A DNA stretch of 32,872 nt from a virus: IMG/VR virus record IMGVR_UViG_3300030118_004217, positions 1 to 32,872 of that record; one strand, given 5' to 3'. The position numbers were made by a program, and so were the translations under genes. Of the stretch, positions 3,769 to 30,827 are shown one piece after another (position 1 is the first letter of the stretch; every line of letters begins with the position of its first letter). The notes under the pieces are model-generated. The model did no database searches, was not told the origin of the DNA, and worked only from the letters and a program-made list of their open reading frames with translations.

Positions 3769-3776
3769 TATATAAT
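3769..3776 (-). promoter_or_regulatory. TATA box of the protease-capsid unit
   Basis: On the minus strand TTATATAC directly follows the stop codon of the giant gene. Its centre lies about 27 bases before ATG 3745, which has no Shine-Dalgarno. This is the spacing expected for an archaeal TATA box driving a leaderless transcript. It would let capsid genes be made independently of the long upstream operon. Confidence 0.6.
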
Positions 3777-6700: not shown

Positions 6701-9463
6701 GTTTTCATACTCTTCGGTCGCAGGTGACGGTGGCTGTCGTGAAAGAATGGGCGTCACGGAGCCAGCCGGATTAAGACGACGAGGCACACCCATTTCAGCA
6801 AAGGTAGTAGGCTGATGTGCGCGAAGACGGTGTTCTTCCTTCAATCGCTCCATGGTGCGTTCGTATTCCTTGTCCAACATGTCGTGTTGTTCGTCGGTGA
6901 CGGCTTTGGCCTTGTCCGAAGAGTATCGCTCCTCAAGTGCTTCTATTTCTGCATCCAAATCACCCACCGCTAATTCATCAGGATGTCGGCGGAGTGACAT
7001 AAAGTCCTCTTCGTGGTTTCGCAAAGTTGGCTGAATCCGACGGTCCGTGATGTGCAGAACATCCTGATGCGGATTCATCGGAGCATTGGCGGCACCAAGC
7101 ATGGTACCGAGAAGTGCGTAACTGTGCGCTCCGTGCGACATCATTCTTTCGTCACTAAGCGACCCGCCTTTTGTGCTAAATGGATGAGTGACCATCAACG
7201 CCCCGCCTCTACCCATCATTTTTTTGTGACTGACATCAGCCGCCCCAGCATCGCCTGTACGGCGACCTTGATGATAGTCTGAAAGAACCTGATTGTTGTA
7301 CGCAGAATCAACCGTCGCACCGTGTCGTGCGAACTGAGCGTTGTAGCCGCCCGTGCCTGCGATACTGGACGACATGACAATGTTGTGAGGACCGAGATTA
7401 CTGGCCGCATCCTCGGGTGCGCCTCGTACATTCGTACGAATGATATTTTGACCTTGGCGCATCTCAAACATTTGGTTCTCTTTTTGACCAAACGGCGCAA
7501 GGAACGGCATCATTTTGTAATCTCTGACTGCACCTTCTGCATCGTACTCGTGCCGACCTTCAATGCCGGACTTGGTTCGTGAAAACAAGAGACTGTGTTC
7601 TCTGACACCTTCCGTCTCAGGCTCAAACTCAACCTGTGTTTCTTCTTGTTCCTCTTCGGGCAAAAAGTCTTCACCGTAAAAACCACTCAGGTCCAGTCCC
7701 TCTTCCTTTGGCTGTTGCGCTACTTCTCTGTACGACAAAGTGTGGTGATGGAGTTTGTCAAACAACTCGTTCGGGTGCTTGGCAAGACCACCTTTACCTT
7801 TGAACGGCAACTGCCAAAAGGTAGAGAGCGTTTCATGACCCTGTTCAGGGTTCATGTAATCGTACTCTTCGTTGTCCATAGCGAAGCCGTAGTGCATCGG
7901 AGCATGGTTACGCGCCATTCTACCGACACCGGCCAACTGCTTCGCATCAATCGCTCGCTTTTCAAAAATCTCGTCAATCTCTTCTTGTGTGAATGCTCCG
8001 CCGTCCCACAACTCACCGTAGGTGGGATGCTCACCAGCAGGGTACAGTTGATGATTTTCGTCCACACCGAGAAGCATTCGCATGGTTTGATAGCCGGGGT
8101 AGTATTCCTCCTTTCTGCCCGATTTGTCCGTGCCTTGAAGTTTTCTGTAGCCCACAACTTGCAGACTTTCTCTTCCAAACTCGTCTTTGACCTTCTGCAT
8201 CACGGGTACTTCTGCGTTGCTGATAGGCTCGTACGGACCAAGGCCTTCAACGATGTATCGGTCTTCTTCCATTTTGTTGTGATGAGCGATGGCACGGTCG
8301 TATGCGTTCGGCTTACCCGGCGTTTGTGTGTCTCTCATCGCTTCGTAATTCTGAGACGGGCTGACTTCAATGGCCGAACTCGGCAGTGCTTTGGGACGAA
8401 TCATCAGACCCTCACCGGGCCGTCCGGGGTCTCGGACCCAGTGGTTGTAGAGTCCTGAAAATCGCTGATGGAAGTTTCTGATGAACCGTGGCATCCAATT
8501 TGGATTACCGTTGTGCGTGTTGGTACGGAACGCTTGTTCAGGATTTGCTCCGTACTTTTTCATGTGGTCGTAAGCGGCGTTGCGCTCTTCGGGTGTGAGC
8601 CATTCCATACCGAAGAAGTAATCCATGAAACCAAGGTTCTCCTTCCATTCAGCCTTTTTCTCGTTGATGTGACGCTTTCTCAATTCGTGCGCTACTTGGT
8701 CCTCGTCCATGCCCTGCTCTTCCAACGAAGCCGTCAACTCGTCCACAGCACGCTGGTTGCGCTGTGTCCATTCCCGGTAGTCATGTTCGTAAAACGCATG
8801 ATTGGTGCCGTGTGTGGTATCAAGTTGACCGTAGTGGAACTTGTTGTGCAAAAAACCGTGGTCGTCGTTATCTCTCACCCACTGCTCCCATCTACCTTCC
8901 TTGTGATGTGCTTTCTGACTTTCTGACTCTGCATACGGGTCGTCAGGGTGCACATAAAAATCGCCCACAATGTTGTGATACTCTCCGTGAAGGGGGTTCA
9001 TGTCGGAACCAAGATAGTTGTGCGTGCGGTACGGGTCGTTCACATCACCGTCTACCATTTGCCACGGTCGTCCAGCAAGCCCTTGTCCGGGTTCGGGAGG
9101 GACAATCCGACCTTTGTCGTAACTGGGATTGTCGGCAAGATTCATTCCCGCACCGTGCCCCATGGCATAACTCATCTGTTGCTCAGTCAGACCCTGAGAC
9201 TGCTCCATGCCCATGCCCTCGGTGCTGAGGTCGTATGCCCCCGAAGGCCCGCTCATTTGTTGCTCATCTATTTTCTTGATGACAGAGTTGAACATTTTCA
9301 GCAGAGCCTCGTCCTCGTCACTGAGGATGTAGCCTCTGCGTTCTGCACTGATGGCAGAAAAGTAAAAATCAGCACCTGCATCAAACTTGCCGATGCCGTC
9401 AACCAATGACTTGTAGAAGGTTTGTCGGTTCCTGTCAAGGGTGTCCAGCGGACCTTCTCGCAT
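3776..9463 (-). CDS. Giant 1,895-residue virion-like protein with degenerate DNA-ligase-like domain
   Basis: The start ATG 9463 follows GGTGATGTAA. Most of the protein is hydrophilic, rich in His, Met, Glu, Asn and Gln, and matches no family I recognise. A charged coiled-coil stretch runs from about residue 838 to 985. Residues about 1425-1660 follow the order of ATP-dependent DNA ligase motifs: MPEGER at 1438-1443 where ligases have KxDGxR; YIFDVIEYAEKAVHDVPLNDR around 1488-1508, like motif IIIa; LLLRDASSVY near 1551, like motif IV; KWVMLKP at 1570-1576, like motif V; then a beta-rich OB-like section. The adenylated lysine is replaced by Met1438 and the EG of motif IV is absent, so ligation is unlikely. 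Lying in the head operon, it could be an internal virion or injected protein; that role is inferred. Confidence 0.8.
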   Translation of the reverse strand: MREGPLDTLDRNRQTFYKSLVDGIGKFDAGADFYFSAISAERRGYILSDEDEALLKMFNSVIKKIDEQQMSGPSGAYDLSTEGMGMEQSQGLTEQQMSYAMGHGAGMNLADNPSYDKGRIVPPEPGQGLAGRPWQMVDGDVNDPYRTHNYLGSDMNPLHGEYHNIVGDFYVHPDDPYAESESQKAHHKEGRWEQWVRDNDDHGFLHNKFHYGQLDTTHGTNHAFYEHDYREWTQRNQRAVDELTASLEEQGMDEDQVAHELRKRHINEKKAEWKENLGFMDYFFGMEWLTPEERNAAYDHMKKYGANPEQAFRTNTHNGNPNWMPRFIRNFHQRFSGLYNHWVRDPGRPGEGLMIRPKALPSSAIEVSPSQNYEAMRDTQTPGKPNAYDRAIAHHNKMEEDRYIVEGLGPYEPISNAEVPVMQKVKDEFGRESLQVVGYRKLQGTDKSGRKEEYYPGYQTMRMLLGVDENHQLYPAGEHPTYGELWDGGAFTQEEIDEIFEKRAIDAKQLAGVGRMARNHAPMHYGFAMDNEEYDYMNPEQGHETLSTFWQLPFKGKGGLAKHPNELFDKLHHHTLSYREVAQQPKEEGLDLSGFYGEDFLPEEEQEETQVEFEPETEGVREHSLLFSRTKSGIEGRHEYDAEGAVRDYKMMPFLAPFGQKENQMFEMRQGQNIIRTNVRGAPEDAASNLGPHNIVMSSSIAGTGGYNAQFARHGATVDSAYNNQVLSDYHQGRRTGDAGAADVSHKKMMGRGGALMVTHPFSTKGGSLSDERMMSHGAHSYALLGTMLGAANAPMNPHQDVLHITDRRIQPTLRNHEEDFMSLRRHPDELAVGDLDAEIEALEERYSSDKAKAVTDEQHDMLDKEYERTMERLKEEHRLRAHQPTTFAEMGVPRRLNPAGSVTPILSRQPPSPATEEYENAIAEMSLLQEQMEVRREIKDEAGMEDIRRRMVENNQRLDDLEAQLEQASKKRGQRFSPDGHDSILQDKLVADTNAMTSAGVHLKNLLQSDPELFNHIFNPNLDHETVEANMRMFAMMANDYLNTVPHDQHGIHTRGHNRITKEGLAGQLDIGSQVKQAFQGHETMMSAETLGDNEALMQQLGLDPSNEYHNATFLDYIRNTFLPNYQQDPSYSAPVMTMRQYLQQSQPDLDIEKEHESLKKDKRSRNTEFLKLVNRIYNTIGHRAEERNSQLGLHHHLAFNSDPRRQRKENKQGEVVHETKPSAGGSNMQKNENDYWNVMQKLDSILTNDPNVPMPESVTETSDEMTGVPVDQFGPNAHSVHSLYNSTGLRHEFGDEFRPNFKYRISRNGNVSITPVPEGHAQRLIQPLGKFWEQVAPPEWMEMLRHPDHQLHRDGLNRLDRMGAQFKPDERGITRHSDKHSVTKTKIGLADLTNPDIIRKELGKEVPILQAMHRIFELDDLGDLRGFTGDWIVSHMPEGERGFVKKEDDEVSSKSFNLSDEDKENFKKVTDEDFHADVIKTEEGYYIFDVIEYAEKAVHDVPLNDRIKIVRGGLEGVENIHVPSASDTRLTDDEGLKTTVEDLNKTHDTLLLRDASSVYMVGELRHPKWVMLKPGSDVVLRVLERRGAGPYTYRLGTGPITRDEEIGDRAVESEGEMYMDVGVAFNSPEKFNEGDHVRVNVANVSKVETTGGDDVYTLTGSKLIGEAEGEGLVSRETLGMLAKSESIQWLCEISRAKSGIRIAMPQGDVLYKCTQTGNMWTVHSPLANNGYLIRLAESQRQYWSPVAGALLKAGLEIAEKEEVHESEGEAKPLIEPHKEKDTNWWENKQKKKVLVKGLTLIDKFLKSGVGAVGQSSTGTMGLGIDYATPIESPMGPTNLHDEKTMPDYDNRKRPGEDFTIEPKTEEEEDEKRMTVPMEQGVLEVSSDKAVFRT

Positions 9464-10638: not shown

Positions 10639-12372
10639 CTAAGCCCCTCTTGGATTCCTTGCGTTGAGGATGCCTTGGCTGGCTTGTTCAACTCCGCCCG
10701 GCGATGCACCTCGTTGCTGAACACTGGACATCGGACTACCTGAACCGAAACTGGTTCTGTTTTGCGGACTCGCAGGACCACGGTTTCTCAACCCCATGCC
10801 CTCGCCACCGGGGTTAGCCATACCCGGAACTTGCGCCTGTCGCCCCATCTGCGCCGCCAGTTGCGGGGGTATGTTGCGACTGGGCAGTGCGCCCGGTGTC
10901 CCCATACCACCGCCCATTTGCATGCCGCCCATTGGTTGCTGTTGAGGTGGTGCTTCCGTGGGGTCAGGTTGCTTGTAGATGAAACGAATGTCTCGGTTGG
11001 CGTCTTCTTTGAGTTCAGGTTTGTAGCCCATCATCATCATGCGCTGAGCGATGTTGACTTCCATCTCATCTCTGCGAAGACGAGTCACCTCGTCTTCCTC
11101 TTCGTTTGGATAAAGAGTGAGTTTCCAATCAGTGACATCCATCTGCGAAACCATCCTTGGGAACAGGTGGTCAGTGTAGACTTTGTGACCGAACTCCACA
11201 GCACGGTTCGTGACAAGAATCTGCATACCTTCGTTGTTCAGCCCACCGGACTTGCCCGTGTCCATCATGAACACATTGGACACACCGTAGAACGCCGCTA
11301 TGCGCTGTCGCATTTCATCACGAGCAGGAATGTACTGCATTTCCTCAAGGCTGTCCATGAGTTTGACCCAATTGACGCCACCTTTGCCGTTGCCCTCTGT
11401 AGCGATTTTGGGAATGTAGTGAGGGTCTCGTTCCAATTTTTCATCGGTGGCTTTCCAAAACGACTTCATGGATTCAAGGTTCTCGGTGGTGATGCTGAGA
11501 ATACCTCGTGGAATGCGGCGCTTGGAATAAGCGGTGTACATGTAATTGTCCATCGCTGTAAGCGTCATAGCCTGTCGCCACAATGTGGACACAGGCGACC
11601 TGCCGTACAACTTGGAAGGCTGATACTTGCTCACATGAATGACTTCACCTTTGAGGTAATACTGCGTTTTGCCGCTCCCTGCGGTGTTGACATGGTGAAC
11701 ATCCTCCATCTCTGTCCCGCAGACGGGACAGTTCTTGTCGTCTTGCGAGTAGGCTTTAACCTCGTTGCGGTGGATTGGACAAACTCGGAAACGCCCGCCC
11801 CGTACACCACGCTTGTCGGCGATGATACGCATAAAAATCGGGTCGCCACGAACGATTTCTTTGATGCGGTAAAAGGCCATTTCGTTGGTTTCGGGGTCAA
11901 TGAAGTATTCTTTGATGAGGATAAGGAAGGCATCGTCGGTGATGTTGAGGTCGTATTCAACCTCTCTCATGACATCCATGAAAGTCTGTTCCATGGAGTT
12001 GCGCTGTTCAAGGAGCCATCGTGGGTAGACCAACTGATTTGGGTCCGGGTCTCTGACTTCTCCTCCACACTCAACGCACATTTCCACATCGTGCTGGTAT
12101 TCTTTGTCACAGTCAACGCACTTCTTGTGAAATTTCTTATCCCAGTAGTAGCCTCGTCGGAAAATCTCCTGCTGGAGCGTGCTGAGTACGGTTCGCAAAA
12201 TCAGATTCTCGTTGGCGACAGCGTACAGTGCAGGTATAGTAATACCCTGCACAAGAACAGGTTCCTGAATACCGGTGGTCCACAAAGGCATCTGTGGCTC
12301 AGGGGTGCTTCTCCTACGGAACGGATTGCCAATGGATTCCAACAATCTGCCAACTCTTCCCTTCTCTGCCAT
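10639..12372 (-). CDS. Portal protein with two inserted zinc ribbons
   Basis: A 577-residue protein; ATG 12372 shares its A with the TGA of the upstream gene (TGATG) and follows GGAGGG by six bases. The order after the large terminase, the length, and the pattern GEVIHVSKYQPSKLYGRSPV, then AFYGVSNVFMMDTGKSGGLN, then VTDWKLTLYPNEEEDEVTRL fit the portal family that forms the DNA-entry ring. Two zinc-ribbon-like insertions stand out: Cys85/Cys88 with Cys99/Cys102, and Cys198/His201 with Cys215/Cys218. They interrupt the N-terminal half of the portal. The last 110 residues are Gly-, Gln-, Met- and Pro-rich and probably disordered. The portal call is firm from context; zinc binding is predicted. 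Confidence 0.85.
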   Translation of the reverse strand: MAEKGRVGRLLESIGNPFRRRSTPEPQMPLWTTGIQEPVLVQGITIPALYAVANENLILRTVLSTLQQEIFRRGYYWDKKFHKKCVDCDKEYQHDVEMCVECGGEVRDPDPNQLVYPRWLLEQRNSMEQTFMDVMREVEYDLNITDDAFLILIKEYFIDPETNEMAFYRIKEIVRGDPIFMRIIADKRGVRGGRFRVCPIHRNEVKAYSQDDKNCPVCGTEMEDVHHVNTAGSGKTQYYLKGEVIHVSKYQPSKLYGRSPVSTLWRQAMTLTAMDNYMYTAYSKRRIPRGILSITTENLESMKSFWKATDEKLERDPHYIPKIATEGNGKGGVNWVKLMDSLEEMQYIPARDEMRQRIAAFYGVSNVFMMDTGKSGGLNNEGMQILVTNRAVEFGHKVYTDHLFPRMVSQMDVTDWKLTLYPNEEEDEVTRLRRDEMEVNIAQRMMMMGYKPELKEDANRDIRFIYKQPDPTEAPPQQQPMGGMQMGGGMGTPGALPSRNIPPQLAAQMGRQAQVPGMANPGGEGMGLRNRGPASPQNRTSFGSGSPMSSVQQRGASPGGVEQASQGILNARNPRGA

Positions 12373-13679
12373 CACAATCCCTCCGCCCAATTCATGACTG
12401 TTTCACGGTCTACTCCCCATTCTCGCAGAGAGTCCTCGCCTTTAACGGTTCCATCCCTGTTGGAGAATTGCACGAATCGCTTCAACTGCGTTTTCCGCAC
12501 GGGGTCTTTCTCCTCAATGTAAGCCAACACCGCCTTTGCCTGCATGTCTTTCATCCGTAGATGAGGCGTCAATTGTCCCAGTAGTTTGTTTAAGTCGTCT
12601 TTGGCGTAGAAACTGACACGGTGCTGACTTCGTTGGTTGTCCGAGTACACTTTTTGGTCAAGTTGTAACACACCTGCACCTATGTGCTTGTGCAACTCTT
12701 CGCAGTGCATCCGACCTCGGTCACCGGTGGCGATGAATCCTGCTCTTGGCTCTCCTCGTTCAGTGATGGTGATGTAACCGTCAGCGTCAAGGAAGCCTGC
12801 GGCATAGGCCCACGGGTCTTTGAGAATCAAACCTGAGCGGTCTATGCACATGTATTCACCTTTACGATGCGCTTTGATGATGTTGATTTCTTCACCATAC
12901 ATGTTCAGCAACTTGGATAGCCGATTGGCATTTAGCCTTGGCACTCCCTTTTCTATGAGGTTCTGCGTGATGGTTCTCGCCTTCATCGCACCTTTTTCTT
13001 GCAACTCTTCTTTGGCAAGACTCATCCACTTTTGTTGTTCTTTGGACAGATTGTCAAATTGATGCAAAGCGTTTCTCCAAACCTTCCTTGCATCCTGTTT
13101 CTGTGTCATAGCCCCAACCCAAGCGTTTTTTTCTTCTTCTCCCCACACATCCTCAAACTCGTCCAATTTGAGCAAGGCCTCTTCGGCACTGTCCCAAAGG
13201 TGACAGGCTCTGAGGAGGCTCGCCTTTCTCGTATCGCCGAACAACCGCAAGGCTCGTAGGTCTTTGTTGGTCAGTCCCATTTTACGCATGGTGTCTCGGT
13301 GTCCCTCGGCCCATCCCAATTTAGCCAGCGTTGCCTCCACTTCCAAACTCTTGAGGCTACGGACGCTGGCGATGATGTTGTCAATTTCGTCTTTGTCTTC
13401 TTTGAACACTCGGCGTGCTTTTCGCAAATCACGAATCACAGCGTTGGCACTCTTGCCGATTTTGTCTTCAAACCAACCTTCGCCGGTCGGTGAAAAGGGA
13501 GCGTATTGAGGAGGTGGCACCTGCTCTTCACTGAACAGCACCGACTGCGATGCGATGGATTTGGCGATGTTTTCGTCCACCATCGGATGGCCGAGCAGGT
13601 TGCTGGCGATGGTGTTGAGAATGTCATGGCCCATGTCAACCGAATGAACAGCGTTTCCGACACTCAGGCTTGGCCACAT
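12372..13679 (-). CDS. Helical protein with C-terminal LAGLIDADG endonuclease-like domain
   Basis: 435 residues; ATG 13679 has GGGTGAT just upstream, and a TTG 12 bases earlier is an alternative. Residues 1-275 are helical and unknown, with a DNA-binding-like stretch (NLIEKGVPRLNANRLSKLL near 250). From about residue 280 comes KDPWAYAAGFLDADGYITIT, a single LAGLIDADG motif (AGFLDADGYI at 294-303), followed by the beta-strand and helix pattern of that fold to the end. One motif per chain implies a homodimer in known homing endonucleases. It is neither inside an intron nor in an intein here; it sits as a full gene between large terminase and portal, coupled to both. It may be a repurposed DNA-binding packaging factor or a free-standing homing gene. 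Confidence 0.75.
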   Translation of the reverse strand: MWPSLSVGNAVHSVDMGHDILNTIASNLLGHPMVDENIAKSIASQSVLFSEEQVPPPQYAPFSPTGEGWFEDKIGKSANAVIRDLRKARRVFKEDKDEIDNIIASVRSLKSLEVEATLAKLGWAEGHRDTMRKMGLTNKDLRALRLFGDTRKASLLRACHLWDSAEEALLKLDEFEDVWGEEEKNAWVGAMTQKQDARKVWRNALHQFDNLSKEQQKWMSLAKEELQEKGAMKARTITQNLIEKGVPRLNANRLSKLLNMYGEEINIIKAHRKGEYMCIDRSGLILKDPWAYAAGFLDADGYITITERGEPRAGFIATGDRGRMHCEELHKHIGAGVLQLDQKVYSDNQRSQHRVSFYAKDDLNKLLGQLTPHLRMKDMQAKAVLAYIEEKDPVRKTQLKRFVQFSNRDGTVKGEDSLREWGVDRETVMNWAEGL

Positions 13680-13709
13680 AACATCACCCAACTTTTGGTA
13701 TCACATAAA

Positions 13710-15191
13710 TCATGCTGTGAACCAACTTGCTCCTGCGACATGTCGTTGAGGTACATCGCCAAACCAATCGTCTACGCCCTCAAGGTAATCATCCAACAGA
13801 ACAATCGTGCCCCTGAACTCCTTCGTTGCCCAGTTGGCCAACGCCACGCTCACAGCCAAGTCATCGTGACTGCCCACCGATTCCAACCGCCCGTTTTTCT
13901 GCATGCCGAACCGACTGAGTTCGGTCTCAAGCGTTCTCGTGAATTCTTTGCTTCTCTCGTCGCCCCAAGGCGTTTTGATGTGCCCTTGCTCAAACGCAAG
14001 AAGCAGACTCATGAACATGGACTCTTTCTTGGCCCTCGTTGTCATGAAAATTTTAATTGGCATGTCCGCCGCCATTTCACGCATCTCTGCTTCCAACATG
14101 CGCTGGAAGTTGTTACCTTCCAACTCAATGAGGTCAGGCTGAAACTTGCTGTTGAGGGCAACCATCATGCGCTTCTGCGCCATGGACGACAGACCCTTTT
14201 CGTGAACACTGTGAATCAACTGCTTCACATCTTCACCGGGCAACATACGCATGACTGTCATGGCCGTGTAGTCAGCATTTTTGTCAGAAGAAATGGCAGG
14301 GTCGTAGCCGATGAAGTGCTGTCCGAAAATACCTGTGGACTCGCCTTTGTCGTCGTATTCGTACTCGGCCTTGTCCATCAGACGCAGAGTTGGGTCACGA
14401 GCCTTTTCCAACAAGTGCATGGGAAACATGCTGGACATATCGTGGATAGGTTCGCAGAGGTATTCACGAGCGAACTTGATGGCAGGCATGGATTCCTCGC
14501 GCTGTTTGAGGGCTTCAAGTGGCCATCGTCCGGGCCATAATGGTTTGCCGTCGGGCTGTATAGCAGGGTAAGTCTCCACGGTGAAGGTGTCTTTGTCCTC
14601 CAACTCGGCGTACAGGTCGTTGTACGAAAACGGTGTACCGACCATCATCAAACGGCCGGTGTGGTGAAGAACAGGGAGCAAGACGGTGTAGAACCAATCA
14701 GCGGCTCTTTGCAACTCCGAACTGGTCGTACCCCACAAGATGTCATCGCAAACAACAACATCCGGGTGAAAACCACGGGTAGCGCCGCCCACCGACTTGG
14801 CCATGATACGACTGCCGTTGGTGAACTCAAAGTAGGACTTGGCCCAAGGCTTGCCCTGTGGCTTAAGTCCCTTAAGAATGTCAGCGGAATCAATGTTGTT
14901 TCGGATGAATCGCATGTGTTCTAAGGTCTGCTCAAGGCTGTGACTGAACACCATGATGTGCGTGTTGGGGTTGAACGCCGCCAGCCACAAAGCGTAGGAC
15001 ATGAAGAACACCGACTTGCCGTGGTCACGAGATGCCTTGACGCAGTAGTAGCGATTCTCGTTCAAACCTTTCAGCCATTCTTCGTGATGATGTGACAGTT
15101 CAAAGTCAAGAATCTCAGTGAAGAAATAAGCGAACGATTTCTTTGACATTTGCGTGTCCATCTCGTGAACGAGGTCGTTGATGTCAGCCAT
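13710..15191 (-). CDS. terL: Terminase large subunit (packaging ATPase-nuclease)
   Basis: 493 residues; ATG 15191 overlaps the preceding TGA (TGATG) with GGGTGG six bases upstream. The N-terminal ATPase has a variant Walker A, ASRDHGKS at 53-60, and a Walker B VVVCDD at 145-150 with the usual catalytic acidic residue. The C-terminal RNase H-like nuclease has Asp297 in GYDPA, LIELEGNNFQRM around 378, and Asp443/Asp444 in SHDDLAVS as its metal ligands. This is the motor that drives genome DNA into the prohead and cuts it. Next to the LAGLIDADG-domain protein and the portal, it is the most secure assignment in the window. Confidence 0.95.
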   Translation of the reverse strand: MADINDLVHEMDTQMSKKSFAYFFTEILDFELSHHHEEWLKGLNENRYYCVKASRDHGKSVFFMSYALWLAAFNPNTHIMVFSHSLEQTLEHMRFIRNNIDSADILKGLKPQGKPWAKSYFEFTNGSRIMAKSVGGATRGFHPDVVVCDDILWGTTSSELQRAADWFYTVLLPVLHHTGRLMMVGTPFSYNDLYAELEDKDTFTVETYPAIQPDGKPLWPGRWPLEALKQREESMPAIKFAREYLCEPIHDMSSMFPMHLLEKARDPTLRLMDKAEYEYDDKGESTGIFGQHFIGYDPAISSDKNADYTAMTVMRMLPGEDVKQLIHSVHEKGLSSMAQKRMMVALNSKFQPDLIELEGNNFQRMLEAEMREMAADMPIKIFMTTRAKKESMFMSLLLAFEQGHIKTPWGDERSKEFTRTLETELSRFGMQKNGRLESVGSHDDLAVSVALANWATKEFRGTIVLLDDYLEGVDDWFGDVPQRHVAGASWFTA

Positions 15192-16168
15192 CAATTACCA
15201 CCCTGTTGTTCTCGTTCAAACTTTTCTCGTTGAAGTCGTTCAAGTGATGGGCTCATGTTGCCAACCACAGCGGCAGTACCCGGCGACATCTCATCCTCTT
15301 CGTCATCGTCAGGAGCAGGTGCAGAACCTCTAAGTGCATCATTTGTCCGATTTTTATTGAACTGGTCGCTTTCATTTTCAATGCTGTTTATTTCAGCAGA
15401 AGCACTGTTTTCTCCCAATTGAGGTATAGAATTGCTTACTGCTACAAGACTCTGTGGGGAAACTACAGAGCCATCGGCCCTTGTTACACCTTCCATCGGG
15501 TCAACAACTCCCACCGAGCCTTCTTTTTGGCGTTGCTGGTTTCGGGCTGTTTGGTTGAACAAGTTCATACGCTCTTCTATTTCGTTTTCGGGTACCCCAG
15601 CGGCTACAAGTGATTCTCGCAAATCACGGTAGGCCTGTGCAAACTTACGATTCTCTGCACCAAATTGAGCGCCTTCTGCGGCGGCTTGTGCTCTCTGCCT
15701 TGCTCGTGCTTCTCTTGCTTGCTGAGCGGCAAGTTCGTCTTCCCGGTTCACTTCTGCAACCCGACGACGCATTGTTGCGGGATTTATACGCTCGTTGACA
15801 TCGTATCGTCTGTTGTCAAAGCGACCCTCTGCGGACATACGAGCATAGTCCCTTCTTGCCTCTTCATCCATGTCGGCCCTCGCTTGCCTTTCACGACCGA
15901 CAAACCTTCTACCAAGGCCGCGACCGAGTGCCGCTCCTTGAGCGCCTCCGCTCACCATGCTTTGAGCGAGTCCGCCAAGACTACGATGACGACCAGCAAG
16001 TGCACCAAGAACACCGACAAGTCCTCCGCCGATACCACCCAGCCTTTCTCTCATTGTCGTACCTCTTGGCCTACCGCCTCTGTTCCCACCTACCACCATG
16101 ATAGGTGGGCCACCGCTGACCGTGTTGTAATTGGGCTCAATGGCCTTGACGACGAGAACCTTGTCCAT
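15191..16168 (-). CDS. Gly/Arg-rich coiled-coil protein upstream of terminase
   Basis: 325 residues; ATG 16168 overlaps the upstream TGA. Residues about 25-90 are Gly-, Arg- and Leu-rich with a short hydrophobic Gly stretch (GGIGGGLVGVLGALAG) that could insert in or lie on a membrane. Residues 95-215 are very charged and helical (EDELAAQQAREARARQRAQA), consistent with a long coil. The C-terminus is acidic and disordered. No family is recognised. A hydrophobic Gly segment followed by a coil resembles internal or ejected virion proteins, but this is a weak comparison. It is coupled to the large terminase gene. Confidence 0.68.
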   Translation of the reverse strand: MDKVLVVKAIEPNYNTVSGGPPIMVVGGNRGGRPRGTTMRERLGGIGGGLVGVLGALAGRHRSLGGLAQSMVSGGAQGAALGRGLGRRFVGRERQARADMDEEARRDYARMSAEGRFDNRRYDVNERINPATMRRRVAEVNREDELAAQQAREARARQRAQAAAEGAQFGAENRKFAQAYRDLRESLVAAGVPENEIEERMNLFNQTARNQQRQKEGSVGVVDPMEGVTRADGSVVSPQSLVAVSNSIPQLGENSASAEINSIENESDQFNKNRTNDALRGSAPAPDDDEEDEMSPGTAAVVGNMSPSLERLQREKFEREQQGGN

Positions 16169-19173: not shown

Positions 19174-19875
19174 TCACAAAATGTCAAGGATGTCTTCATC
19201 CACTGTGCCGTCAGCATTGGCGAGCAGGCTGGCTTTGACTCGCTTCCAAACATCGGGGCTTTCCTTGCCCAATTCAACTTTCAGAACATTGATGGTGTTG
19301 TTGGCAACATTGGTCGTTGGCTCAGCCCACTTCTCTTGATAGGCCGTCAAGTCCTTGAGTGTCTCTCTGACTTCCTTGTGCAGTCGTACCATGTCACTGA
19401 TAACACCGTCGTCGTGAATGTTGGTCTCCAACATGTACTGAGCCAGTTTTCCATTGAGTCCTTGGACATTGTTTCGTAGGATGTCCACCTCTTCGCCGAC
19501 TTTGATAGCCACAACTGCCGCCGAACTCTTCTTGACAAGCGGTTGAAAGTGATGTTTCATGTGCCGGTACACCGAATCCTCACTGCACTCCAATTCGTCG
19601 GCGATACTTTGACAGGTGCGGTCACCTTCAAAGTACGCAACCTCCAACGCACTGCGGTGGTCGCTGGTGCAGACTGCACACGAGTGGTTCGCAGTGCTGT
19701 GATATTCGCCAACATGATTCTTCATGTGCCGCTCTGCTGTGTTGCTCCGCCAACCCATGTCTTTGTCCATAACTTGAGGGTTGGCGATGCCGTCAATGAT
19801 GCTCTGTTCAAGAGCGTCACGGTCGTCGTGCTGACAGAAAGGACAACTCCGCTTAGTCTGACGAACCCCTCCCAT
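19174..19875 (-). CDS. Tandem zinc/HTH DNA-binding protein, small-terminase candidate
   Basis: 233 residues from ATG 19875, without Shine-Dalgarno but with a TATA-like box about 26 bases upstream. Two related modules are visible: Cys11-x2-Cys14 with RHMKNH at 49-54, and Cys66-x2-Cys69 with RHMKHH at 104-109. Each has a helical centre; the second (SIADELECSEDSVYRHM) reads as a helix-turn-helix. Cys2-His2 plus HTH modules of this type occur in phage small terminases and DNA-packaging regulators. The C-terminal half is helical and could oligomerise. It begins the transcription unit that includes large terminase, which supports a recognition role in packaging; the assignment remains tentative. 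Confidence 0.75.
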   Translation of the reverse strand: MGGVRQTKRSCPFCQHDDRDALEQSIIDGIANPQVMDKDMGWRSNTAERHMKNHVGEYHSTANHSCAVCTSDHRSALEVAYFEGDRTCQSIADELECSEDSVYRHMKHHFQPLVKKSSAAVVAIKVGEEVDILRNNVQGLNGKLAQYMLETNIHDDGVISDMVRLHKEVRETLKDLTAYQEKWAEPTTNVANNTINVLKVELGKESPDVWKRVKASLLANADGTVDEDILDIL

Positions 19876-19935: not shown

Positions 19936-20256
19936 ATGAAATTGCCTCGCATCAAGCCCAAAATCATGGGTGTCCCTGTTTCTATAGAGACGGCGAGAAA
20001 CTTGTCACGGGCCGGTAGAGACATCGCTTTGCGCCGATATGTCCCCGATGATGTCAAAAAGATTCGGCTGGACATCTGTAAAGCGTGTCCCAGTTGGAAG
20101 AACTACCGCTGTACCGAGTGCGGATGTCAGATGCGAGTCAAAACCAGCCTAACATCAAGCGAATGCCCCTTGAGGAAATGGGGAAGGCATATCCCGAGTT
20201 TAAATCTCAGAGATGCGAGAATAAATACCAGTGAGCATGAAGAACGCTCCGAATAG
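19936..20256 (+). CDS. Plus-strand zinc-finger protein (moron-like)
   Basis: A 106-residue protein with a basic N-terminus and a clear metal-binding region: CKAC near residue 49, then CTECGC near 60, then ECPLRKWG near 77. The order C-x2-C, C-x2-C-x-C, C-P-x3-KW is a pattern I know from small phage proteins of unknown function. It is the only plus-strand gene among some 30 kb of leftward genes. Its 3' end overlaps the end of the minus-strand membrane-protein gene by 57 bases, and the last 25 residues may be non-conserved. ATG 19936 is supported by the promoter position; ATG 19966 is in frame too. A regulatory or host-interaction role is possible. Confidence 0.75.
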   Translation: MKLPRIKPKIMGVPVSIETARNLSRAGRDIALRRYVPDDVKKIRLDICKACPSWKNYRCTECGCQMRVKTSLTSSECPLRKWGRHIPSLNLRDARINTSEHEERSE

Positions 20257-20446: not shown

Positions 20447-21088
20447 TCACCGTGTCCCCATCATTCTGCCCATGAAACTACCAGCGGCGGAGCCAGCCTT
20501 GTCCATGAATCCCTCGTTGGCCAGTGCCGCACTTAGTGCGCCTCCCATCATGGACTGCTGTGCGAACGCCGCAATTTGCTGTTGTTGCATCTCTGCTTGC
20601 TGAATACCCTGCTGACTGGCCATCTGCAACGAACTGAATTGGTTTTTGACATTTTCAGCACTCATGGTCTGTAGGTTCTGAGGAAGAGAAGCGATGTCCA
20701 TTTTCATTTTGCCCTCTTTGTCGTCAATGATAAACTCGGCGTTTTTCAAGATTTCAAGCACCGAGAAACTTACGAGGTCGTTGAACATCTGTAAAAAAGT
20801 CGCCATTTGCGCTCCAACAACAAAGCGGTCAATTGGAGCAAGTGTACGCATCATGGCCAGTTGAATTTCCATTTCAGTAGGAGGTGTCATTGGCTGTTGC
20901 ATCATGCCGGGTTGCATACCCATACCGCTCATCATACCTCCTGCGAACGCATTGTTCTGCGCTTGTTGCATCATACCGTTCTGTTGTGCGAATGGGTTCA
21001 TCGGAGCGGCTACAGGCTGACCACCTGCTTGCGCTCCGAGGTTGAGGGCTCCGTTTTGTTGTTGTCCGTTGTTACCAAATAACATCAT
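20447..21088 (-). CDS. Gln/Met-rich helical protein
   Basis: 213 residues; ATGATG at 21088 follows GAGGTGA, which starts within the TGA of the upstream gene. The first 70 residues are low complexity in Gln, Met, Asn, Gly and Pro. A folded helical domain follows (about 75-150, with RTLAPIDRFVVGAQMATFLQ and FSVLEILKNAEFIIDDKEGK). The C-terminus is Gln-, Ala- and Met-rich with a small hydrophobic Gly/Ala segment. No family is recognised. It is tightly linked to the zinc-binding 333-residue gene and the GTPase gene, so it may belong to the same complex. Confidence 0.68.
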   Translation of the reverse strand: MMLFGNNGQQQNGALNLGAQAGGQPVAAPMNPFAQQNGMMQQAQNNAFAGGMMSGMGMQPGMMQQPMTPPTEMEIQLAMMRTLAPIDRFVVGAQMATFLQMFNDLVSFSVLEILKNAEFIIDDKEGKMKMDIASLPQNLQTMSAENVKNQFSSLQMASQQGIQQAEMQQQQIAAFAQQSMMGGALSAALANEGFMDKAGSAAGSFMGRMMGTR

Positions 21089-21094
21089 TTCACC

Positions 21095-22096
21095 TCATTG
21101 TGTGAACAGACCTTGCTCTGTTTGTGGGAGGGCACCTTGATTGATAACATCATTGGTCACTTCTTGGGGTAGATTTTGCCCTACACTGGGTGCCGGACTT
21201 TGCACAATCCCAAGATTACCTATGGCATCAGAGAGTGTTGGACCCATGTTGGCCATTTCTTGTTGGAACAGGCGCAAATCAAAGACAATCATAGTCACAT
21301 CATTGATACCTGTTTCGGGGTTTTTGTAATGAAGAAGGTTGATGCCGTTGTAGGTTTTGGAGTCCTTTTCCAACTGCATGAAGAACGGTTCGTATTTTTT
21401 GAGCAGTTCAGGTGTGTTGTCTTTTTTCTTCACAATAGAAATGGGCACAGCGACTGTTGAAACACCTTTTTTGACCATTTCACGCATGCCAGTCTTGGTT
21501 TTGTTGTGGTCTTTGTCAGCCTCTGCTTCCCACTTACACAACAAATGGTAGAGGTGAAGATGCTCAGGGCAATAGGTACCCTTCATTTTGCGACCGTTGG
21601 TGACCTGTTCCCGTGCCACAAACGGCTCGGGCGTGCCAGTTACTGGGTTTTTCCAGTACATCTCCCACAAACTTTTGCCGGTTTCTTCATCGGTTATCTT
21701 TGCGTACAAATTGTCGTATTTGATGAGTTCTTCACAGTCACAGCCGTCAATAACACAGAGATTGCTTTGCCGATTGTAGCGGTATTTGCGCCCCCAAACC
21801 CAACGCAGAGGGTTGTACCAAGCCCTTTTCGTCGGCGTCAATAACCTACGAGCCTGTTTGATGTCCTGCTTGCGGGCTTTGCGTGGGTCAGGGTGACGGC
21901 TTGGATAAAAGTTCACTTTGGGAACCTCAATGTTTTGTTTAGCCATTTCCTGCATACCTTGCTGTGCGGCTTGCATTTCCAACAACTGCTCGTGACTGGC
22001 GTTACCTTGTTGCCCCAGCGCCACCAAATGCGATTGACTCATGTTTGCCAAGTTGGCGTCACTTTGTGGCACTCCATATCCTCTTAGTCTCATCAT
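21095..22096 (-). CDS. 333-residue protein with Cys/His metal site
   Basis: ATGATG at 22096, four bases after the GTPase stop. Residues 60-110 are very basic (Arg/Lys) with Trp and Tyr. A probable zinc site follows: Cys114, Cys119 and Cys121 in LCVIDGCDCEE, and Cys176, His179, His181, His184 and Cys187 in YCPEHLHLYHLLCKW. The middle (residues about 210-290) looks like a mixed alpha/beta domain (VAVPISIVKKKDNTPELLKK, INDVTMIVFDLRLFQQEM). The tail is Gln- and Pro-rich. I do not recognise the family. The coupling to the GTPase gene suggests a partner of the GTPase, which is an inference. Confidence 0.7.
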   Translation of the reverse strand: MMRLRGYGVPQSDANLANMSQSHLVALGQQGNASHEQLLEMQAAQQGMQEMAKQNIEVPKVNFYPSRHPDPRKARKQDIKQARRLLTPTKRAWYNPLRWVWGRKYRYNRQSNLCVIDGCDCEELIKYDNLYAKITDEETGKSLWEMYWKNPVTGTPEPFVAREQVTNGRKMKGTYCPEHLHLYHLLCKWEAEADKDHNKTKTGMREMVKKGVSTVAVPISIVKKKDNTPELLKKYEPFFMQLEKDSKTYNGINLLHYKNPETGINDVTMIVFDLRLFQQEMANMGPTLSDAIGNLGIVQSPAPSVGQNLPQEVTNDVINQGALPQTEQGLFTQ

Positions 22097-22100
22097 ATCA

Positions 22101-22817
22101 TCAACTCAACAAATCCAACATTGTGTTTTCTACATTCCATCCAATCTTTGTGGCCATCATTCCCCTCTTCGTAGGAACACCCGCTTTTTGGAGGCGCACG
22201 AGGTCTTCTCGGAATGGGTCAAACATTTTATGTTCTCCGAGCCTCTGCTGTTGCCATAAAATATTTGCTTGGTCATCCCACCACTCGTCCGCTTTGTTCG
22301 CCACCAGCATGATAACTTTTGGAGCATATTTCTTACCTTTCCAACGACTTTTGAGTGTGCGATAGCGATATTGCCTGTGAACGATAGCGTCTACGAGAAA
22401 CTTGAATCCTCCGACAGCCTGAACGGCTGGGTCACCTCCTTGCGTACAGCGGTGGTCAAACAGAAAAACAATCGCTTCCACCTGCCTTGCTACCATGTCG
22501 TCCGTCCACAAATTCCAAAACCGCTCCTCTCCGGCGATGTCAGCCGAGTACACCACTCGTTTGTCGCCTTTCCAACTGACTCGTTTGCGAGTTGCACCGG
22601 GAAGTAAAAAACGATTGATGCCGGGTACCTTGAAGTGCTTCGTTCGTTCGCTCATGGGAATGTCTTCCATTTCTCCGGGCGTCGTCATGTAGCGGTCAAG
22701 TGTCGTTTTACCAACCATGGTCGGTCCGTAGACGCCAACTCTTCTCGGCTTCCAGTAGTGGTACAACTCTTTGGCGAACACAACGCCACCGACAAGTGCG
22801 CTACCTCCCAATGACAT
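22101..22817 (-). CDS. Ras-superfamily-type small GTPase with hydrophobic N-terminus
   Basis: 238 residues; ATG 22817 shares its A with the upstream TGA and follows GGGGAG by six bases. An upstream in-frame extension has no ribosome site. All main G-motifs are visible: G1 P-loop GPTMVGKTT at 31-39; G3 DIAGEERFW starting near 93, like DxxGQE/E; G4 NKAD near 173-176; G5-like ATKIGWNVENTM near the C-terminus, like SAKxGxNVEE in Rab/Ras proteins. The Thr-rich stretch after the P-loop could hold G2. Residues 3-21 are hydrophobic (GGSALVGGVVFAKEL) and could anchor it in a membrane, as in signal-recognition-particle receptor beta. It is flanked by membrane-protein genes. Nucleotide binding is likely; the cellular role is unknown. 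Confidence 0.88.
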   Translation of the reverse strand: MSLGGSALVGGVVFAKELYHYWKPRRVGVYGPTMVGKTTLDRYMTTPGEMEDIPMSERTKHFKVPGINRFLLPGATRKRVSWKGDKRVVYSADIAGEERFWNLWTDDMVARQVEAIVFLFDHRCTQGGDPAVQAVGGFKFLVDAIVHRQYRYRTLKSRWKGKKYAPKVIMLVANKADEWWDDQANILWQQQRLGEHKMFDPFREDLVRLQKAGVPTKRGMMATKIGWNVENTMLDLLS

Positions 22818-23080: not shown

Positions 23081-23677
23081 TCACTTGTCCTTACTTTTGT
23101 ACTTACCATCTGCGCCACGAAGTCTTTCGGCAGGCTTCTTTTCGTTGTCAAAGTCAAAGCCAAGCGACAGAGGTGCCGAAGACTTGGGTACGAAGTCAGT
23201 CGTGCCTGTGCCGGTACCCATCATCCGCTGTTCAATCCAAGGCGGTGTTTGACCGGGGTTTTGCTCCATCCAGTTGAGTTCGGCTTCCAACTGTGCCTCT
23301 TGCATGCGAATCTCCATGTCTTGGCGTCGTCGGTCAAACGACATTTCCATACTACGATAGCGTGTACGGCGTTGTTTTTCTTGTGCGGCGATTCTCGCTC
23401 GCTCATCCATGCCCTGCTGAAAGAACATTTTGAACAGATAGTAGGCCACACCTTGAACAGCGAATGCCGCCATGGCGTAGGTGATGCCGTTCACCGTCGG
23501 GTCGTCCAATTTCAACCAGTATTCTGCATCAAAAACAGCGATGGCTATTCCGATAGAAACGGCTTGGGTCAGAATCAAACCCATCAGTCGTATTTCTGCT
23601 TGGTCAGCGTCTCTCATGGGTTCTCTGCCGCTTTGCACAACAATCCCTCTCGGTGTTCGCACCACCACTGTACTCAT
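23081..23677 (-). CDS. Two-TM protein with coiled-coil tail
   Basis: 198 residues from ATG 23677, with a weak GTGAT eight bases upstream. Residues about 30-50 (LMGLILTQAVSIGIAIAVF) and 63-86 (ITYAMAAFAVQGVAYYLFKM) are membrane helices. After them comes a long charged helix, RARIAAQEKQRRTRYRSMEM through about residue 150, predicted to be a coiled coil in the cytoplasm or virion interior. The C-terminus is Lys-, Gly- and Pro-rich. It lies downstream of a strong hairpin and seven bases before the membrane protein coupled to the GTPase. It is probably a structural membrane or envelope-type protein; its function is unknown. Confidence 0.72.
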   Translation of the reverse strand: MSTVVVRTPRGIVVQSGREPMRDADQAEIRLMGLILTQAVSIGIAIAVFDAEYWLKLDDPTVNGITYAMAAFAVQGVAYYLFKMFFQQGMDERARIAAQEKQRRTRYRSMEMSFDRRRQDMEIRMQEAQLEAELNWMEQNPGQTPPWIEQRMMGTGTGTTDFVPKSSAPLSLGFDFDNEKKPAERLRGADGKYKSKDK

Positions 23678-28804: not shown

Positions 28805-29881
28805 TCAAGCGGCTCGGTCAATCTGAGACTGCTCAGGTGAGCCGTCAGTGCGACCACGCTGTCCTGCGAATTGCATCAAACGCTCACGAATGGCCTGAGA
28901 CTCGGCACTGGCGGGGTCTTGGAACATGCTCATGGTGTCTTCGTCCATGGGGACATTGAGGTCGGGCTTCTCGCCTTGTCGCACACGCTCAAGGTTTTCC
29001 CGGTAGCGGTTGCTCATTTGACGCAGAGGGCGCTCCTTGGTTGGCTTTGCTTCTCGGGGAGGCGTCTTGTCTTCAAAGGTACCGCCAGCGGCCGTGGCCA
29101 TGCCGGAAAGAATGTTGGCGATGGTCTCTTGCTGGGTGGGCTTGCGAGTTTCTTCGGGTTGGTCAACGAACTCACGACTTGCACCGCCAAGGCGTGCGCC
29201 TGTGCCCACACCCTCAACATTTTGAAGCGTGGTGGCTCGTCGTCGGCGAGAGCCCGGTCGCATTCGCTTTCCTTCATCGTCCACACCACGCAGTGGCAAG
29301 TTCATACCTGCACCGGAGCCGCCCCGAATGTCGGTTCGCCCACCACGCTGACCGCCGGTCAGTTGACGACCGGCCGACTGCTCCATGCCTTCACGAGCCA
29401 GTCGCTGTTCTCTTGGAGAAAAGAATGATTCTTCGGGCATAGTGTCAAAACCACGCACATTGGCCATGGAAGGTGCAGAGGTGACGCCCATGGACTGAGT
29501 GTCTCCGGCCATTTCTTCGGCGTCCCTTTGAGAAATCATGGTCTGTTGCATCTCACGCAGAGGCGTCAAGTCTCGCTGAACTCGGCGGTCGGTAGCGGGG
29601 AGTGGGTCGGGCATGAATGTTTCACCGGGGCGCATGTCGCCAGCCTCGGAAGGCATGTCCACTTGACGCATAGGCGACACCATGCGTCGGTTGTCACCTT
29701 GACCTTCAAATTGAGCAGGGATGGTTCGTCGCATGTCCATAACATCGCCAAGACCTTCTTCCCCGGCTTCGGCTCTGCGTCGTGCAAGCATCTGCAAAAC
29801 GGCAGGCGGAAGCGTTCCCATGTAGCCTTGTTGACCGGGTATGGCTTTCAGTAGATTCCAAGCGTGCATGAATGCGCTCAT
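28805..29881 (-). CDS. 358-residue Arg/Met-rich protein with N-terminal AW-x-LLK motif
   Basis: ATG 29881 overlaps the lyase stop (ATGA). The N-terminus MSAFMHAWNLLKAIPGQQ carries the motif shared with other proteins here. The rest is low-complexity: many Arg, Gln, Met, Gly and Pro residues, with no membrane segment, cysteine or catalytic motif. RRMVSPMRQVDMPSEAG and NRYRENLERVRQGEKPDLNV are typical stretches. Most of it looks disordered. The same motif at the N-terminus of likely virion proteins suggests that this too is a virion component. The coupling to the lyase shows the lyase gene belongs to the virus and not to adjoining host DNA. Confidence 0.66.
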   Translation of the reverse strand: MSAFMHAWNLLKAIPGQQGYMGTLPPAVLQMLARRRAEAGEEGLGDVMDMRRTIPAQFEGQGDNRRMVSPMRQVDMPSEAGDMRPGETFMPDPLPATDRRVQRDLTPLREMQQTMISQRDAEEMAGDTQSMGVTSAPSMANVRGFDTMPEESFFSPREQRLAREGMEQSAGRQLTGGQRGGRTDIRGGSGAGMNLPLRGVDDEGKRMRPGSRRRRATTLQNVEGVGTGARLGGASREFVDQPEETRKPTQQETIANILSGMATAAGGTFEDKTPPREAKPTKERPLRQMSNRYRENLERVRQGEKPDLNVPMDEDTMSMFQDPASAESQAIRERLMQFAGQRGRTDGSPEQSQIDRAA

Positions 29882-30720
29882 GCACTTGGGATAGCGTCAT
29901 CGGTTAAAGAGATGCTGATGCGCTCGGCCAATCGCTCAGCCAGCCTGAGTCGTTCTTCGTCAACCCCGGTCTGAAAGCCCCATGCGTGCAAATGCCTGAC
30001 GAGTGTTGCGGTGTTGATGTTGGCTCCACTGCCCTCAGCGAACGGGCAACCACCAAGTCCACCGATGCTGGCATCAAACTCTCGTATGCCGTTAAGTAAG
30101 CCACTTCTTACTAAGGCCACTGCTCGGCTTTCATCGTCTTTATGGTGCAAATGAAGCGCCGCTCTGACGCCTTCGTTCTTCGCCAGTTCGGCCAACTCAG
30201 CGACTTCCTTGGTCGTTCCTGCGCCCACGGTGTCGCAAAACACAACGGTCTGTCCGAACATTTTGGCATCTCGGATGCACGAAATCAGCGTGGAGATTGT
30301 AGGCGTCCCGCTGTAAGGCGAACCGAAGGCCATGCTGATGTAGACTCGGACATTCTTCTTGGGCACCTTGTCCATGAAGGTCTTGTACATCAACACAATC
30401 TCACTGCGGGTCTTGCCCATGTTCTTCATGTTGAAGTCCTCGCACGGCGAAAACACGATGTTGAACTTCTGCACACCGGCCGCAACAGCCCGTTCGTAGC
30501 CACGCCTGTTCATCACCAGCGCACTGCCACGGTCAAACACTTGCTCGGCGTCCGCCATCTGCGGCAAGACCTTCGGGTGAGCAAAACTCACCTCCTCAAT
30601 GTCAGCCAGCCCGCTGTCGTACAGAAGGCCAATGAGTTCCCGTTTCGTATCGGTAGGCACGAAGCGCTTGATGTACTGGAGTCCGTCCCGAGGGCCAACC
30701 TCGTAGACGGAAATGTTCAC
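29878..30720 (-). CDS. HMG-CoA lyase-like enzyme (DRE-TIM metallolyase family)
   Basis: 280 residues. GTG 30720 is preferred because GGGAGG lies seven bases upstream and the GTG overlaps the previous stop (GTGA); a GTG at 30783 would add 21 unconserved residues. Family signatures: YEVGPRDGLQ at 6-15 with Arg11 and metal ligand Asp12; VSFAHPKVLPQMAD; FCDTVGAGT; His190 and His192 in LHLHH; GLGGCPFAEG with catalytic-loop Cys225, and Asn234. In the known enzyme these residues bind the divalent cation and cleave HMG-CoA to acetyl-CoA and acetoacetate. All key positions align without gaps around Cys225. It is slightly shorter than cellular forms (about 300). The substrate in this virus is inferred; another acyl-CoA is possible. 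Confidence 0.85.
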   Translation of the reverse strand: MNISVYEVGPRDGLQYIKRFVPTDTKRELIGLLYDSGLADIEEVSFAHPKVLPQMADAEQVFDRGSALVMNRRGYERAVAAGVQKFNIVFSPCEDFNMKNMGKTRSEIVLMYKTFMDKVPKKNVRVYISMAFGSPYSGTPTISTLISCIRDAKMFGQTVVFCDTVGAGTTKEVAELAELAKNEGVRAALHLHHKDDESRAVALVRSGLLNGIREFDASIGGLGGCPFAEGSGANINTATLVRHLHAWGFQTGVDEERLRLAERLAERISISLTDDAIPSA

Positions 30721-30827
30721 TCCGTCGCCTCCCTCATTAGGCGACAGCATCGGGCACAGTTCACGACTCTCTTTTTTGTCCACGAAGTACGCTTTTCACG
30801 ACCACAGGTTTGGCAGGTGTAGTTCAC
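30717..30827 (-). CDS. 36-residue zinc-ribbon peptide
   Basis: GTG 30827 overlaps the stop of the upstream membrane peptide, and its own TGA overlaps the GTG of the lyase gene, so it is coupled on both sides. GGAGGGG lies six bases upstream. The peptide reads NYTCQTCGREKRTSW, then VVNCARCCRLM, with two CxxC knuckles. Such a short ribbon may bind zinc and contact RNA polymerase or a partner protein; this is speculation. The perfect junctions make it a real gene despite its size. Confidence 0.66.
   Translation of the reverse strand: MNYTCQTCGREKRTSWTKKRVVNCARCCRLMREATE

Follow-up and report, generated by a model that had tools for sequence, protein, structure and literature searches.

Small GTPases that direct membranes are a hallmark of eukaryotes, and among them the Arf proteins carry the G3 motif DxGGQ with a downstream Trp. 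In archaea, too, small GTPases were lately linked to the budding of vesicles: Haloferax ArvA, an Arf-like small GTPase whose N-terminus forms an amphipathic helix, is required for this process, and deletion of the zinc-ribbon gene of its operon raises budding (PMC10927574). Giant viruses of eukaryotes also encode GTPases of this fold, which are Rab, Ran or Ras types by annotation. Magrovirales, one of the commonest virus groups of the ocean, are assigned to marine Poseidoniales and are related to Druskaviridae (PMC12999244; PMC10768690). We found no mention of a GTPase in the magrovirus papers searched, and an earlier annotation in a table is possible.

Here we describe an Arf/Ras-like small GTPase gene in a 32.9-kb virus record (IMGVR_UViG_3300030118_004217, positions 1 to 32,872; this whole stretch is called the window). 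The locus resembles that of ArvA/OapA: in both, a small GTPase of Arf-like type that has a helix (predicted for the viral protein) at its N-terminus shares its operon with a zinc protein, and the hosts are of Euryarchaeota type (PMC10927574). The P-loops are similar as well (LGIYG..NVGKTTL in L443). The layout of GTPase and zinc protein prompted us to consider that the viral protein is ArvA itself, but the alignment fails past the P-loop: profile alignment with ArvA homologues covers 34 P-loop columns only, with an E value of 1.6e-4 against 6e-13 for Arf, and the G3 of ArvA, unlike that of the viral protein, is DMPG. No Pfam match to ArvB (PF09846) or ArvC (DUF2072) was obtained among the scanned proteins beside the viral GTPase. 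By analogy, ArvA may offer a functional precedent for a membrane switch in a virus.

Source virus

The window carries genes for the terminase large subunit (TerL), portal, prohead protease and an HK97-type major capsid protein (MCP), the last being 33% identical to the MCP of Haloarcula virus HVTV-1 and its kin. Related long contigs measure 92-109 kb, and PolB was present in all 14 that were tested. The relatives therefore show the traits by which we recognised Magrovirales, namely a head module related to that of Druskaviridae, a genome of 90-110 kb and PolB, the window itself being a 33-kb fragment. The HMG-CoA lyase-like gene, present in 45 of 142 loci, also fits Magrovirales, since such a gene is known in magroviruses (PMC10768690). 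Judging from its gene content, the window fits a tailed virus of magrovirus type that infects marine archaea.

The GTPase gene and its motifs

The GTPase ORF runs on the minus strand from ATG 22817 to a stop at 22101. The mechanically called ORF opens upstream, at TTG 22874; ATG 22817 was preferred because homologue starts lie at or near its position. Translation from the minus strand upheld the coordinates in the preliminary description, as well as all four motifs quoted there (GPTMVGKTT, DIAGEE, NKAD and ATKIGWNVE). The features of the gene and its surroundings are collected in Table 1.

Table 1 Features of the GTPase gene, its block and the virion module in the window
Feature	Position	Strand	Basis or remark
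Major capsid protein	1199-2326	-	33% identity to HVTV-1 MCP
Prohead protease	2342-3745	-	Profile matches
Portal protein	10639-12390	-	Profile matches
Terminase large subunit	13710-15194	-	Profile matches
TerS-like HTH protein, downstream of block	19174-19875	-	Weak matches; position conserved
213-aa Met/Gln-rich protein, same block	20447-21088	-	Homologue in clade 2
333-aa putative zinc protein	21095-22096	-	Cys114 and GTYCPxH shared by the two clades
Arf/Ras-like small GTPase gene, 238 aa	22101-22817	-	Translation, homologues, model, profiles
G5 ATK, residues 222-224	22146-22154	-	Aligned with SAK in clade 2
G4 NKAD, residues 174-177	22287-22298	-	NKxD invariant
G3 DIAGE, residues 93-97	22527-22541	-	Alignment of homologues
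R58-T59, likely switch-I (G2) Thr	22641-22646	-	Invariant in both clades; role inferred
G1/P-loop GPTMVGKTT, residues 31-39	22701-22727	-	GxxxxGKTT invariant, n = 165 sequences
Predicted N-terminal helix, residues 3-22	22752-22811	-	Model; possible membrane anchor
85-aa protein, one hydrophobic segment	22817-23074	-	Stop overlaps GTPase start (TGATG)
198-aa protein, two hydrophobic segments and helical tail	23081-23677	-	Topology; conserved position
HMG-CoA lyase-like gene	29878-30783	-	NCBIfam E 1.4e-63, below cut-off

Across 165 distinct homologues, which fall into two clades with the window protein in clade 1, G1 (GxxxxGK[ST]), G3 (DxxG) and G4 (NKxD) are all fixed. Invariant residues are G31, G36, K37, T38 and T39 in the P-loop region, R58 and T59, D93 and G96 of G3, W101 and W104, and N174, K175 and D177 of G4. 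The R58-T59 pair is the likely G2, because it sits where the switch-I Thr is expected; T59 follows the P-loop Lys by 22 residues, and by 20 in clade 2. At the aligned G5 position, clade 2 has SAK, the canonical form, and clade 1 has ATR or ATK. The residue aligned with Gln61 of Ras, residue 97, is Q, E or D: in clade 1 it is Q in 48, E in 31 and D in 12 of 91 sequences (E in the window), and in clade 2 it is E in 74 of 74, so the conserved catalytic Gln of the Arf motif is not kept. With a dN/dS of about 0.03 against the closest homologue, purifying selection on the gene is strong, and its conservation is far beyond chance.

A helix of 20 residues is predicted before b1. Its best 18-residue Kyte-Doolittle mean is 1.2 in the window and 1.7-1.8 in the other clade, with a hydrophobic moment of about 0.3, and residue 2 of the homologues varies among S, V, A and G, with no constant Gly2. 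Such moderate hydrophobicity would suit a monotopic or otherwise weak anchor in the membrane better than an unmistakable transmembrane segment. The likeness to the hydrophobic N-terminus of SR-beta, which had been drawn from the sequence at the outset, extends to a predicted helix of moderate hydrophobicity.

Predicted fold and family placement

We used the AF2 model built on the two-clade alignment (pLDDT 78.9, pTM 0.78), which supersedes a model from clade 1 (44 rows, pLDDT 68). Both models have the strand order b1-a1-b2-b3-a2-b4-a3-b5-a4-b6-a5, and the predicted sheet of six strands with antiparallel b2, together with helices a1-a5, gave matches in Foldseek and VIA-align. At the top of the VIA-align results stood Arl8b, Arl10B, Arf1, Arl6, Arl1 and an Asgard Arf (Z 15.0-15.7 over about 160 residues, 2.4-3.0 A), followed by Rag and SR-beta (Z 13.5-14.9) and then by Rab and Ras (about 13). 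When profiles were compared with those of Asgard families, Arf came first (E 6e-13), ahead of SRPRB (1.4e-11), Rag (2.3e-11) and Ras (2.2e-8), and TerL of the same virus, which is a P-loop ATPase but no GTPase, did not match (E 0.32). In hmmsearch against the PDB, SR-beta, Rab33B, Asgard Arf and Arl8 appeared at E values of about 0.003-0.1.

Searches with the window protein as a single sequence gave little: phmmer against the PDB found nothing, Pfam returned MMR_HSR1 alone (E 0.29) with no match to SRPRB, PHROGs yielded nothing of note and NCBIfam no match. Clade-2 proteins matched MMR_HSR1, SRPRB, Roc and Ras of Pfam under the cut-offs (E down to 4e-4; SRPRB scored 17.8 and 13.4 bits, its cut-off being 25), and small_GTP of NCBIfam, likewise under its cut-off.

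The preliminary description had proposed a Ras-superfamily small GTPase in a virus of prokaryotes, and had named as counter-evidence a best match to a packaging or AAA ATPase or an incompatible strand order. Motifs, profiles and predicted structure bear the proposal out: in the HMM-HMM comparison with Arf, Ras and SR-beta it was the GTPase families that matched, no packaging or AAA ATPase reached significance, and the strand order is Ras-like. On these grounds the protein is almost certainly a small GTPase of the Ras superfamily, and its motifs suggest that it would bind and hydrolyse GTP. By profile and model, its place is more exactly on the Arf/Rag/SR-beta side than in Ras proper. Because its distance from Arf (E 6e-13) far exceeds that between Arf and Rag (2e-34), it appears to form a separate branch near Arf, Rag and SR-beta and to be a member of none, so that this side of the superfamily would gain a divergent branch.

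Arf/Arl proteins (Arf1, Arl8b, Asgard ArfR1), which gave the nearest structures and the best profile match, share with the viral protein a DxGGQ-type G3 followed by Trp at the same spacing (DIGGQQRFWNLW in many viral homologues) and a helix, here predicted, preceding b1. The viral protein, which is 15-19% identical to them over the fold, differs by lengthy inserts within switch I and ahead of G4 and by having neither the G3 Gln nor Gly2 fixed; its gene, moreover, belongs to viruses of archaea and has genes for membrane and zinc proteins as neighbours. SRPRB shares the hydrophobic N-terminal helix before the G domain and matched by profile, by hmmsearch (5ck3, E 0.003) and by structure (Z 13.5), but it scored under Arf in both comparisons and the viral helix is no clear transmembrane segment. 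Rag/Gtr proteins (Z 14.9), including Asgard LokiRagO, belong to the same superfamily, whereas the viral protein stops after a5 and is without their C-terminal roadblock-type domain. The GTPases of giant viruses are likewise virus-encoded and of the same fold, with the best viral structure matches at E 3e-7 and weaker and a Z of 13.0 for the mimivirus Rab (5xc5); the present GTPase, unlike them, is closer to Arf than to Rab and belongs to the core genes of archaeal tailed viruses.

Distribution and a second clade

A first scan of viral contigs yielded 59 relatives with 57-93% identity, and a second one 209. Homologues of either clade were absent from 50,697 phage records (E up to 1). Among viral structures, the best matches, at E up to 0.001, all came from viruses of eukaryotes. 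Both results are in keeping with the rarity in viruses of prokaryotes that had been supposed beforehand. Among 41 long related contigs bearing the MCP, 31 have the GTPase. The other 10 reach merely 2-20 kb upstream of the MCP, the window gene lying 19.8 kb upstream, and they provide no clear counter-example because they end too early on that side. The GTPase is a core gene of magroviruses. HVTV-1 is without it, though its head module is related.

A profile search of MAGs containing virus contigs revealed two homologues of 222 aa with about 30-35% identity, and a scan with this second clade gave 118 relatives, mostly on contigs of up to about 97 kb with a G+C content of about 36%. The GTPases of the two clades are homologous (E 1.3e-32). 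Most of clade 2 has PolB divided between two genes, as seen in the seven contigs in which both halves could be located. Aoguangviridae are annotated with a PolB split in this way (PMC10768690), and the very divergent clade 2 resembles that family. One record of 184.7 kb (IMGVR_UViG_3300021958_000021) has two clade-2 GTPase loci (L372, L400) about 92 kb apart and is probably two genomes joined in assembly.

Matches in MAGs labelled Asgard, Maricaulis and Cytophagaceae were considered as host genes and rejected, as their flanks show binned virus contigs. The presence of magrovirus-like contigs in such MAGs (L141, L142, L143, L349, L350) is a contamination caveat for counts of small GTPases. The cellular genomes searched for homologues were essentially Asgard, and some of their proteins, about 290-300 aa long (L433, L434, L446), have a C-terminal Arf-like domain whose G3, DLGGQRDFWNLW, is close to the viral DIGGQQRFWNLW. 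By sequence, these near-identical G3 motifs offer a lead on a possible cellular origin of the viral GTPase.

A gene block conserved in both clades

The stop codon of the 85-aa gene overlaps the GTPase start, and the zinc-protein gene begins 4 bases past the GTPase stop, so translation is probably coupled. Both the coupling to a membrane-protein gene and the close zinc-protein gene had been pointed out from the sequence at first sight, and both neighbours proved to be conserved. In clade 1, the order is a protein with two transmembrane segments (2-TM, 198 aa), one with a single segment (1-TM, 85 aa), GTPase, zinc protein and Met/Gln-rich protein, then TerS, in nearly all of the 142 loci (2-TM in 137, 1-TM in 133-139, GTPase and zinc protein in 142 each). 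In clade 2, it is a 2-TM protein (127 aa), a 1-TM protein (72 aa), GTPase, zinc protein (220 aa) and a 217-aa protein, with the 2-TM gene in 80, the 1-TM gene in 77, the GTPase in 82 and the zinc gene in 80 of 82 loci; a possible 186-aa ORF stands between GTPase and zinc gene in one of the 82.

The zinc proteins are homologous between the clades (E 1.3e-8), with one Cys and GTYCPxH among their shared invariants, and so are the 213/217-aa proteins (E 1.6e-5). The transmembrane proteins of clades 1 and 2 gave no sequence match to each other and are alike by position and topology alone. A SLATT identity for the 2-TM protein was rejected (18.8 bits against a cut-off of 55). The block sits just before TerS in clade 1; in clade 2 it comes shortly after the MCP, ahead of neck- and tail-like genes. 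Its content is thus kept while its place among the virion genes shifts, which argues for a joint late function.

Proposed role and alternative explanations

We consider that the GTPase, a core gene presumably made with the virion proteins, is probably a membrane-linked late switch. Its N-terminal helix, together with the 1-TM and 2-TM proteins encoded next to it, would hold it against the cytoplasmic side of the host membrane. Upon GTP binding it would there recruit the zinc protein, and the Met/Gln-rich protein may be drawn in as well. Such recruitment may time and place a late step, either virion assembly at the membrane or the deformation or opening of the membrane for exit, and hydrolysis, perhaps aided by the zinc protein, would reset the switch. 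That the action is late is suggested by gene order. Since the position of the catalytic Gln is occupied by Q, E or D, the switch probably depends on help in trans to turn off, and the neighbouring zinc protein would be the foremost candidate for this GTPase-activating role or for that of effector. The step itself is the most speculative part, and we judge a role in deforming the membrane or in exit, as opposed to assembling particles, to be less likely than not.

The same gene order could also be read as that of a soluble GTPase, a checkpoint or assembly timer acting on capsid, neck or packaging proteins, with the membrane genes serving otherwise, for example as a lysis pore. The position of the block directly after the MCP and before neck and tail genes in clade 2, and just before TerS in clade 1, would suit it, as would the homologous zinc and 213/217-aa proteins that accompany the GTPase in both clades. 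We regard it as unlikely, because two membrane-protein genes precede the GTPase in the same order in both clades, one of them overlapping its start codon, because the GTPase bears a predicted hydrophobic N-terminal helix, and because HVTV-1 has a related head module but lacks this gene.

The GTPase fold may alternatively belong to a virion structural protein that does not cycle, in which GTP is a structural ligand or is not hydrolysed. Although the gene lies among virion genes and the catalytic Gln position is variable, this is distinctly improbable: neither the nucleotide-binding motifs nor the putative switch-I Thr varies down to about 30% identity, and purifying selection is as strong as expected of a working switch. 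The variable position does not decide the matter, for substitution of the Gln by itself is compatible with assisted hydrolysis, as in Rap1.

A host-takeover factor that mimics or blocks a small-GTPase pathway of the host, such as ArvA-type vesiculation or protein targeting, would accord with the Arf/SR-beta-like fold and with the occurrence of ArvA-type GTPases in many archaea (PMC10927574). Such genes, however, are usually early and variable, whereas this GTPase is a conserved core gene in a virion module, and the explanation is very unlikely. That the protein is another P-loop NTPase (packaging, RecA-like or AAA) with G-motifs by chance can practically be dismissed, for the matches to RecA and uridine kinase are weak and limited to the P-loop (E above 0.1), those to RecA tandem fusions reach 2e-5 solely by summing repeated matches of 20 residues, and against them stand the NKxD and SAK motifs, the Ras strand order with its b2-b3 hairpin, the Arf-type nearest structures and the unmatched terminase of the virus itself.

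A more speculative reading, which we hold to be rather unlikely as a whole, is that the block forms a viral membrane-remodelling system unrelated to ArvA and ESCRT, in which an Arf-like GTPase, its 1-TM and 2-TM partners and a zinc regulator would shape or open the archaeal membrane for assembly or exit. It would parallel, in a virus of prokaryotes, the membrane work driven by Arf proteins. A deeply conserved GTPase in abundant tailed viruses of marine archaea indicates that switches of this kind also belong to the machinery of viruses of prokaryotes, and the 2-TM/1-TM/GTPase/zinc block provides a defined handle on how these uncultured viruses assemble at the host or leave it.

Other features of the virion module

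Adjoining the prohead protease gene, positions 3776-9463 (minus strand) encode a protein of 1895 aa with a degenerate DNA-ligase domain at residues 1475-1575 (PF01068, E 0.01); its clade-2 counterparts (L353, L427) have a full ligase domain (E 4e-30 and 8e-32) and represent a nucleotidyltransferase within the head module. In the portal protein, two CxxC pairs resembling those of zinc ribbons lie near the N-terminal third of the chain (E 8e-4 for a double zinc ribbon). Between TerL and portal lies a 439-aa gene (12372-13691, minus strand) whose product has a C-terminal match to an HNH-type endonuclease (phrog_5046, E 1.2e-7), possibly a homing insertion. A gene for a 106-aa Cys-rich protein (19936-20256, plus strand) lies within the virion operon, which itself runs on the minus strand, and this orientation opposite to the GTPase recurs in 122-123 of the 142 loci.
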